Positions 44,062 to 47,025 of a stretch of DNA of 64,000 bases are shown here, one piece after another (the first letter of the stretch is position 1; every line of letters begins with the position of its first letter). Position numbers and translations under genes: made by a program. The notes beneath the pieces were generated by a model. It did not search any database, had not been told where the DNA came from, and saw only the letters and a program-made list of their open reading frames with translations. The stretch is from an uncultured Fibrobacter sp. (GTDB taxonomy: Bacteria > Fibrobacterota > Fibrobacteria > Fibrobacterales > Fibrobacteraceae): the NCBI GenBank assembly GCA_900313675.1, contig OMSO01000002.1, forward strand, positions 62,001 to 126,000, written 5' to 3'.

Positions 44062-44067
44062 GCCCAA

Positions 44068-44160: not shown

Positions 44161-45462
44161 GTGTTATCGAATCTGTTTTTACAGTTTACGCATATTGAGC
44201 TGCTGATTTCTTACCCTGTCAAGGACCTCTTGACTTTGGTAAAAAAAGACCCTCGCTTTACGGTAAAGACTCTAAATGACATTTACTTTGAAGATTCCTT
44301 CGTTGATGAGAGCGTTCACCGTCTGATTATGAATACGGTGGTGAACTGGCTTTATGAGCGGGGCGAAAATCCCGATGCCTTTGTGCAGCGTATTATCGAC
44401 CGCTGCGCCGCTTTTGAAGGGGTTCCTGCCCGTAGTGTGCTGCGCTCTTACCTTCCTTATGTGTCTCAGTTCTATGCCACCAAGGATGTGCGTCAGCTCT
44501 GCCTGGATATTATCCCCAAGCGTTACCCCCTGCTTACCGATCCCAAGTTCCTCCGTCGTGAAGTTGTTGATGGAAACCGAAAGGAATATTTCTCGTTCCG
44601 TTTCGATTCTCCGGGCATGTTGGTGACGAACCCCATGCGGTGGTTCAACGGTTTAGTACAAATTGGCCCTATCCTTTTGGATACTCCGCCCTACGAACAC
44701 ATGGAATTTAAGGCTGCTCAGACCTCTTTCATCGAAGCTTTGGAGAACAGGGCGACCGCCGAAATGCGGGACGACGGCTTTGTTTATGTGAACGGCCGAG
44801 CCGTGGGTAAGAATATGACTTTCGGGGACTGCCTCGAAGAAAATGGTCTGCAGTGGGAATTTGATGCCGAAAAGAAAATGTCTTGCGTCAAGGCCCTCGA
44901 AGACGTGGTAGATGAGAAGGTCGGTGCGGTTCTTATCCATAAGGGCTGCTACTATGGTGCTCCTGCTGCAATCGTATTTTTTGATTACAAGGCCGATGTG
45001 GTGGCACCGGAACCCTTTAATAAACTGATGAGTGCCGTGGTCAAGCAGGAATTCGATTCCTGGCAGCCTATCCAGAAGGCCCAGGAACAGCTCCTAGAGG
45101 GCATGAACGACTCCGTGACGGTCATTTACTACAAGAGCGACGACTCCATTTCGGTGAACAGCAAGCACCTGATGCGCAACGTGCCTGCTCGAATCCTTAG
45201 GAACTTGCTCCGCGAATACACCGCTACAGGCCGTGAAGAATACGAAAACCGCGAATTCAAGAGGGATCCGGCTATTTGTATGGACCCGCTCCGCCCGAAC
45301 TTCGAAAGCCGCCTGAACCGCGTCATTGCCCATATTAACGGCACCGACGACAAGGACGGCAATGTTACGGAAGGCGTCAAGAAGTATTTTGAAATTGAAC
45401 GTCACCGCCGTGGCGGGTTCAGGTTTGTACCTAAGTGCAAGATTATATTTAGAGAAGAGTAG
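44161..45462 (+). CDS. Hypothetical cytoplasmic protein, possible C-terminal winged helix
   Basis: 433 residues from GTG 44161, with GAGG upstream. Family not recognised. No signal peptide or TM segment. The N-terminal ~110 residues are helical (FLQFTHIELLISYPVKDLLT, SVHRLIMNTVVNWLYERG). The middle (~130-300) contains FSFRFDSPGMLVTNPMRWF and repeated GDCLEENGLQWEFD-type segments. The last ~95 residues, VPARILRNLLREYTATGREE, then NFESRLNRVIAHI and RRGGFRFVPKCKIIF, resemble a winged-helix DNA-binding unit ending in a GxRF strand, so a regulatory role is possible. It is divergent from mutL and has no operon partner. Confidence 0.6.
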   Translation: MLSNLFLQFTHIELLISYPVKDLLTLVKKDPRFTVKTLNDIYFEDSFVDESVHRLIMNTVVNWLYERGENPDAFVQRIIDRCAAFEGVPARSVLRSYLPYVSQFYATKDVRQLCLDIIPKRYPLLTDPKFLRREVVDGNRKEYFSFRFDSPGMLVTNPMRWFNGLVQIGPILLDTPPYEHMEFKAAQTSFIEALENRATAEMRDDGFVYVNGRAVGKNMTFGDCLEENGLQWEFDAEKKMSCVKALEDVVDEKVGAVLIHKGCYYGAPAAIVFFDYKADVVAPEPFNKLMSAVVKQEFDSWQPIQKAQEQLLEGMNDSVTVIYYKSDDSISVNSKHLMRNVPARILRNLLREYTATGREEYENREFKRDPAICMDPLRPNFESRLNRVIAHINGTDDKDGNVTEGVKKYFEIERHRRGGFRFVPKCKIIFREE

Positions 45463-45543
45463 AACTCTTTGTAAGAAAGAAATAGAAATTTAAATAAGAA
45501 AAACAAAAGTTCCAAAACCCCAAAGAATTGGTATATTATAGGC

Positions 45544-45680
45544 GTTGGGATATTAATGGGTAATTCTTAGGACAATTTATATCATTGCTCCCCTCCTGAT
45601 GAGTTCTAAGTTCTTTTAATTTCTCAATATTTTCTCCTTCTTAGGAAAGGTCCCCCGCGAGGGGGGCCTTTCTTATTTTA
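45544..45680 (+). ncRNA. Candidate small RNA with C-rich loop
   Basis: No open frame of note occurs in 45463-45739. A -10-like TATATT (45532-45537) is followed by a possible start near 45544 and a strong intrinsic terminator at 45645-45677, giving a ~135-nt transcript. A predicted stem CTTAGGAC/GTTCTAAG (45566-45573 with 45603-45610) presents a 29-nt loop containing CTCCCCTCCT (45588-45597), complementary to Shine-Dalgarno sequences. The -35 region is weak, and the RNA could instead be a long 3' UTR of the gene ending at 45462. Confidence 0.4.
45645..45677 (+). terminator. Strong intrinsic terminator
   Basis: GAAAGGTCCCCC (45645-45656), loop GCGA, GGGGGGCCTTTC (45661-45672), then TTATTTT. 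It ends the candidate small RNA or the gene ending at 45462. Confidence 0.9.
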
Positions 45681-45682
45681 AC

Positions 45683-45713
45683 AAAAAAAATCCGCGCTAA
45701 TGCACGGATTTTT
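45683..45713 (-). terminator. Intrinsic terminator for thrC (possibly bidirectional)
   Basis: Stem AAAAATCCG/CGGATTTTT (45686-45694 with 45705-45713) with T-runs in both directions; on the minus strand it follows the restored thrC stop at 45740. Confidence 0.8.
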
Positions 45714-45739: not shown

Positions 45740-47025
45740 TTAGCGCCTTCTCTCGCCCATCTCTTTTTTGAGGATGTCCATGACGGCGCCCAGGTCTGCC
45801 GGGGCCTTGAACACGGGGTTCGCGAACTTGGAGGCTATGTTCTCGAGTTTCTTTTCGTGGTAGCCGACCTTGAATTCGGTGAACTTGAGGCCGTGTGCCG
45901 TGCTGATGACGACCACGTTACACCCGTATGCGGACAGCAGTAAAGACCGATGCGGTCACCGCGGTGGGCGGCGTTTGCGAGTTCTTCTTCGGTGACGCTC
46001 ACGACCATGCCGTTCGTCTTCTGGATGGCGCGCACGGCCTTCGGGTAGCTGACCGGGTTACCGATCTGGATGGCTGAGGCAAGCGTCTTCTTCGCCTGCA
46101 TGGGGACCAGCTTGTCGAAGCCGCGTTCGTATGCCTGGTAGAACGGGTTCGCGTTTTCGGCCTGGGCCACGATGATGCGCGGGATGCGATCGATGAGGCC
46201 CATGGCCTTGCAGTCTTCGAAACCCTTGGCGAGTGCGCTCACGTTGCCGAGGTTTCCGCCCGGGATAATCACGGTGTCGGGCACCTTCCAGCCCATTTCC
46301 TGGCAGATTTCCGGAGAAATTGTCTTCTGACCTTCAACGCGGAGGCTGTTCATGGAGTTGGCGAGGTAGATGCGGTTGTCGGCGGTGACCTGCTGGACAA
46401 TCTTCATGCAACCGTCAAAGTCGGTGTCGAGGGCGAGCACGATGCTGCCGTTGCTAATCGGCTGGATCAGCTGGGCAACGCTGGTCTTCCCGGCGGGGAG
46501 GAACACGATGCTCGGGATGCCGGCCTTGGCGCAGTAGGCGCTCAAGGCTGCGGAAGTGTCACCGGTAGAGGCGCAAGCCACAGCGTCGATCTCGTGAATC
46601 TTCTTTTTAATAATGTGGTTCACCTGGCTTACGAGAACCGTCATGCCCAGGTCCTTGAAGCTACCCGTGTGGGAGTTGCCGCAAAGCTTGACCTTCAGGC
46701 TTGCGATGCCGAGATCACGAGCCAGCGGGGCCGCGTCAAAGAGCGGGCTCCAGCCTTCGCGCATGGTCACGATGTCTTCGAGGGGCATGTCGGGGAGCAC
46801 CATTTCGCGCTTGCTCCAAATGCCACTCATGTCGGCAGGTTCAAAGCTCATGCGACGTTCGGCAAAGAGCTTTTTCCATTCGTCGGGGCTCTTGCTGGCA
46901 AGGGCGCTGCGGTCGTGCTCGACTTCGAGCAGGCTTCCGTCCACCTTACTGCGGTAAATGACGTCGGTCAGCGGGTAGGTGTCGTCCCCGTTGATGTTCC
47001 TGAAATGGGCGTTGAATTGGGCCAT
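45740..47025 (-). pseudogene. thrC: Threonine synthase with a 3' deletion and frameshift
   Basis: PLP enzyme converting O-phosphohomoserine to threonine. The open frame from ATG 47025 (AGAGGA upstream) is intact through HTGSFKDLGMTVLVSQV (PLP Lys) and GDRIGLYCCPHTGV, then turns into a nonsense tail (TWSSSARHTASSS) and stops at 45835. The missing C-terminus is found in another frame: VVVISTAHGLKFTEFKVGYH onward, to GAVMDILKKEMGERRR ending at 45740. The break is near 45920. In homologues about 20 residues separate PHTGV from VVVSTAHGLKF; here they are absent, so a ~60-nt deletion (not a multiple of three) is the simplest explanation, or an assembly error. The minus-strand promoter -10 TATATT is at 47052-47057. 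Confidence 0.85.

Follow-up and report, generated by a model that had tools for sequence, protein, structure and literature searches.

The question raised by this locus is whether a short gene-free interval in the genome of an uncultured Fibrobacter sp. encodes a discrete RNA and, if so, how that RNA might act. Bacteria of this genus are among the main degraders of cellulose in the guts of herbivores. A preliminary description of the window (the whole stretch of 64,000 nucleotides that was analysed) had proposed a candidate small RNA with a C-rich loop complementary to Shine-Dalgarno (SD) sequences. Judged by comparison of genomes, the forward strand at 45532-45679 almost certainly carries a conserved small RNA gene; the comparison firmly establishes the existence of the gene, how it is structured and how widely it is conserved.

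A BLAST-type search with positions 45500-45700 gave good matches throughout Fibrobacter. Fourteen sequences were used to build a covariance model for scanning the genus. It found one strong match (E value 2e-9 or better) each in the genome of the window and in 57 of 60 other genomes of the genus. The three genomes lacking a match, G017, G034 and G042, are 62%, 81% and 71% complete, respectively. The comparison set consists of 58 loci, that of the window included; on the window itself, covariance model R1 matches 45542-45679 with a score of 99.5 bits. All 58 loci share the 18-mer TTTTCTCCTTCTTAGGAA without a single change. When this pattern was scanned with one mismatch allowed, a single site was found in 34 of 37 genomes (the window's own and others of the genus), the exceptions being G017 and G034, which have none, and G033, which has an extra one-mismatch site. 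The reversed 18-mer, used as a control, gave almost no matches in the same scan.

The possibility of paralogues was considered and rejected, as the 18-mer and the covariance model both lead to one real copy per genome. In genome G049, a 25-bp exact copy of the region containing the 18-mer ends a contig (C2, L144), while the full gene is situated on another contig; this second copy is probably an assembly edge. Among GTDB representatives, many Fibrobacter assemblies contain the exact 18-mer; the remaining occurrences, about a dozen scattered single ones in unrelated organisms, have the appearance of chance matches. No homologues were found outside Fibrobacter, where the best matches to the covariance model have E values of about 0.002, lack the conserved module and are taken as noise.

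The predicted transcript (45544-45679, + strand), delimited by the covariance model and single-copy conservation, would start at about 45542-45545. It begins with a rod-shaped hairpin about 85 nucleotides long (45544-45628, +), which is seen in both the fold and the alignment and has asymmetric bulges and covarying helices. The outer helices pair 45544-45550 with 45622-45628 and 45552-45556 with 45616-45620. They are followed by the CTTAGGAC/GTTCTAAG helix and the apical loop UUGCUCCCCUCC (45585-45596, +). The single-stranded CU-rich linker UUUUCUCCUUCUU lies between the rod and an intrinsic terminator (45642-45679, +), which is predicted to have a 15-pair stem with covarying pairs, a GCGA loop and a T tract. 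The 3' module UUUUCUCCUUCUUAGGAA (45630-45647, +), identical in all 58 loci, has its 3' end running into the terminator stem.

Every element named in the preliminary description is recovered. The -10-like TATATT is present at 45532-45537, and CTCCCCTCCT at 45588-45597 is within the loop, as had been claimed. The stem formed by CTTAGGAC (45566-45573) and GTTCTAAG (45603-45610) does pair, but it is only the top of the longer rod. The U-rich spacer corresponds to a U/C-rich segment at 45629-45641, and the strong terminator, previously delimited as 45645-45677, now has its stem at 45642-45675 and its T tract extending to 45679. The second CU-rich segment, beside the terminator, was absent from the earlier account and is conserved more strictly than the loop. 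The loop GCTCCCCTCCTG is near-invariant in most of the 58 loci, and its core, UCCCYUC, is kept in most loci, including most divergent forms. Divergent members retain the C run of the loop but lose the exact CCUCCU (having, for example, CCCUCUU or CCCUCAA).

Of 200 dinucleotide shuffles of the + strand at 45532-45690, 198 fold less well than the actual sequence (-44.9 kcal/mol; z = -2.8). The - strand of the RNA interval folds ordinarily (z = -0.9). Standard pairs occupy 95.1% of the cells of an alignment of 54 distinct sequences, compared with 32-59% when the 3' strands are slid, and the covariation score is 0.352 compared with 0.186 for shuffles, none of 500 shuffles being as high; the alignment was fitted to the covariance model, which biases these values in favour of the structure. 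The helices covary in this alignment: of the 35 pairs of the RNA, counted with those of the terminator, 22 have changes on both sides. A consensus fold of the alignment, computed without the structure of the model, has nearly the same helices. Furthermore, five of the divergent members that did not enter the model (L043, L047, L054, L056 and L057) keep the rod when folded singly, with helix sequences that differ. The loop core is predicted to be unpaired with a mean probability of 0.90 in the 54 sequences, and the linker with 0.75 on average; in the modelled fold both are mostly unpaired, that is, accessible. The stem and the C-rich loop are kept as a unit in 58 of 61 genomes. The checks of covariance and conservation suggested in the preliminary description thus both gave a favourable outcome. 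Together with the covariation and the invariant 18-mer, this conservation upholds the proposal of a small RNA gene that is discrete and has an accessible, conserved C-rich loop.

The interval had also been described as gene-free, and no protein-coding reading of it proved to be conserved across species. A protein on the - strand was considered in view of a rare arrangement, an SD sequence and ATG in the loop region and an SD sequence and TTG or ATG near the terminator, and was rejected because neither the frames nor the stops are conserved. The SD and ATG of the loop region read ATG ATA TAA on the - strand of the window, and the frames vary among species. This arrangement is better read as complementarity of the RNA to a start codon together with its ribosome-binding site.

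The 16S rRNA of the genus ends in ACCUCCUUU (written also GGAUUACCUCCUUU), with the anti-SD sequence ACCUCCUU; the 3' end reported for the class Fibrobacteria is CCUCCUUU (PMC10783764). Six letters of the genus anti-SD are present in each exposed segment. In the loop, the putative anti-SD module 1, these are CCUCCU, with the closing U at 45597 as the last letter. In the linker they are CUCCUU, within UCUCCUU, the putative anti-SD module 2. Upon composition-preserving shuffling of both segments, the double six-letter match was found in 1.1% of cases, showing that C/U richness explains much of it. The resemblance of the exposed segments to the 16S anti-SD is suggestive, not decisive. The idea that the RNA copies the 16S 3' end together with its spacer was also considered and was rejected, as the common letters are limited to CUCCUU and CCUCCU.

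Start regions were sampled from 260 genes in 400 kb of one relative, the first ATG being taken as the start, which will be wrong for some genes. SD-type words peak at -15 to -6 in this sample. For words complementary to the 3' module, the count at -15 to -6 is 38, compared with about 2 per 5-nt bin elsewhere; for those complementary to the loop it is 10, compared with about 0.3 per bin elsewhere. The anti-SD pairing put forward in the preliminary description is plausible, in that both segments match the genus anti-SD and complementary words cluster at ribosome-binding sites. However, apart from the frequency of the match among shuffles, shuffled loops reach the same mean duplex energy at start regions as the real one, and a search of six genomes for targets with long complementarity to the loop or the module gave background or nearly so, the RNA's own locus excepted, and hence no specific target.

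The reading that we favour, with moderate confidence, is that of a stand-alone small RNA gene, core to Fibrobacter, whose likeliest action is pairing at ribosome-binding sites independently of Hfq and CsrA. The RNA would be transcribed from its own promoter to the intrinsic terminator. Its stiff hairpin would display the C-rich apical loop, and the CU-rich linker would lie single-stranded beside the terminator, each copying part of the 16S anti-SD. One or both of these segments would base-pair with the purine-rich ribosome-binding sites of several mRNAs, and the pairing would block 30S binding without either protein. Trans-acting repression of this kind is likely to be the function of the RNA. 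What the computations show is the gene with its structure, accessibility and conservation, and its match to the anti-SD of the genus; we infer transcription, the signal driving the promoter, pairing in trans, repression and the targets.

A tentative alternative, to which a minor share of probability can be given, is that the loop and the 3' module bind an RNA-binding protein, the RNA serving as a cofactor of the protein or as a sponge for it, in the way that CsrB acts on CsrA. The unpaired segments are very strictly conserved, including the UCUUAGGAA half of the invariant module, which SD pairing leaves unexplained, and the search for an mRNA with long complementarity found none; both observations would suit a protein ligand. 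However, the motifs are single rather than repeated as binding sites, and the classical partners were not found: Hfq in 41 genomes scanned, and CsrA in 25 genomes (the window's own and others of the genus). The partner protein on which an Hfq- or CsrA-dependent sRNA relies was therefore not found encoded in the genus genomes scanned. CsrA is present in other members of the class and phylum, unlike in the Fibrobacter genomes scanned. An RNA that is nearly universal in a genus in which neither Hfq nor CsrA was detected, and whose exposed segments are invariant, lends itself to the study of chaperone-free riboregulation, and conservation as strict as this suggests a central role.

The surroundings of the RNA gene bear on a second alternative, namely that the RNA is a 3'UTR element of the upstream gene, mainly terminating or protecting its mRNA, or is processed from that mRNA. 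The upstream gene (44161-45462, +) encodes 433 amino acids without a match to any Pfam or NCBIfam family. In each of the 58 genomes, the gene immediately preceding the RNA on its strand belongs to the same family and is 67% or more identical to the copy in the window; the downstream neighbours vary. A terminator between the upstream gene and the RNA was detected in only 4 of the 58 genomes by a crude scan, making read-through likely, and the RNA may also be part of a read-through 3'UTR. On the other hand, the gap between gene and RNA varies from 38 to 145 nt, conserved promoter elements precede the RNA start, and termination needs neither a conserved exposed loop nor a conserved linker. This second alternative is considered unlikely.

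The promoter elements and the predicted intrinsic terminator are those of a stand-alone gene. The -10 box (45532-45537, +) is located 90-100 nt 5' of the 3' module and reads TATATT in 57 of 58 genomes and TAAATT in the remaining one. An AAATAAG box (45492-45498, +), with a per-position identity of 0.81-1.0 over the 58 genomes, lies 40 nt upstream of the -10 box. Between the two is a -35-region element, AAAAGTTCC (45505-45513, +), which is GGTAGTTC in many relatives; it occupies conserved columns -27 to -19 relative to the -10 box, is GTAGTTC-like near -23, and is separated from AAATAAG by variable sequence. The spaced combination of AATAAG and TATAWT occurs in the window only at the RNA locus, and three times in 400 kb of a relative. 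TTGACA followed by TATATT is found at several tRNA genes of the genus, and TATATT also in SRP RNA promoters. The -10 type of the RNA gene is thus common to tRNA genes, but its -35-region element differs from their TTGACA, which suggests that the RNA's own promoter is probably regulated.

It is very improbable that the RNA is a diverged housekeeping RNA, either 6S or SRP RNA. The 6S family (RF00013) had no match in 19 genomes scanned (the window's own and others of the genus), and the RNA is single-copy and almost universal, both of which would suit this reading. Nevertheless, the 85-nt rod has small bulges and lacks the large central bubble that is the hallmark of 6S RNA, and SRP RNA (RF00169) was located elsewhere in 7 of 8 genomes tested. 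A search of Rfam 15 gave no family at or above its gathering threshold for the RNA. A relative from the same class has a sub-threshold 6S RNA match of 39.8 bits, the cut-off being 46.4 (G064:C53:361-539, L184), which suggests a diverged Fibrobacterota 6S RNA that is not well covered by Rfam. The covariance model of the present RNA does not match this 6S-like locus. An ordinary intergenic hairpin with a terminator, arising by chance in a genome where C-rich words are to be expected as in any other, has a negligible probability and is refuted by conservation with covariation in 58 of 61 genomes.

The RNA is a new family of a known functional kind, the trans-acting sRNAs with C-rich or anti-SD segments; a search of the literature turned up no sRNA described for Fibrobacter. 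It is best read as a trans-acting riboregulator with two anti-SD modules, and it fits a chaperone-free regulator like NmsR, sX13 and 6C/B11, for which this design has been proven. The NmsR sibling sRNAs of Neisseria meningitidis repress translation by SD pairing and likewise have two completely conserved anti-SD segments, a UC-rich loop and a single-stranded UC-rich region (PMC5362039). However, they occur as two sibling copies with three stem-loops in an Hfq-containing host, and no sequence relation to them was found. The sX13 RNA of Xanthomonas has C-rich apical loops, recognises G-rich target motifs near starts and is Hfq-independent, but it consists of three short stem-loops instead of one long rod, and the available part of its report describes no second CU-rich linker module (PMC3771888). 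The mycobacterial RNAs 6C (cited in PMC12395582) and B11 pair with mRNAs through C-rich loops in Hfq-less bacteria. They differ in that the active loop of B11 is within its terminator hairpin and in that their sequences are unrelated, with no match by Rfam scan. The alphaproteobacterial suhB/MmgR family (RF00519) gives weak matches of 17 and 22 bits, limited to the linker and terminator and well below the gathering threshold of 41, and does not have the rod hairpin in common with the RNA.

A more specific suggestion of the preliminary description was that the RNA could selectively repress leadered mRNAs. In 400 kb of a relative, -10-like boxes are in excess at -15 to -11 before starts, and a class of leaderless-type mRNAs probably exists. 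Nothing links the RNA to a split between leadered and leaderless mRNAs, and selective repression is possible but unsupported. A still broader proposal, that of a genus-core global switch in an Hfq-less lineage, in which the RNA, upon activation of its regulated promoter, would compete with ribosomes for SD sites generally and shift translation from leadered to leaderless mRNAs, appears decidedly improbable. If both anti-SD modules do act on ribosome-binding sites, the RNA would offer a natural system for the choice between SD-led and leaderless initiation.

Two further observations concern the window itself. A threonine synthase-like gene with a PALP domain (45740-47025, -) is split by an apparent frameshift, its C-terminal part being in another frame (45740-45916); this could be an assembly error in the metagenome-assembled genome. 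Several starts, for example at 44067 (-), 56120 (-) and 5080 (-), have a TATATT-like -10 box just upstream and no SD sequence, as expected for leaderless mRNAs.
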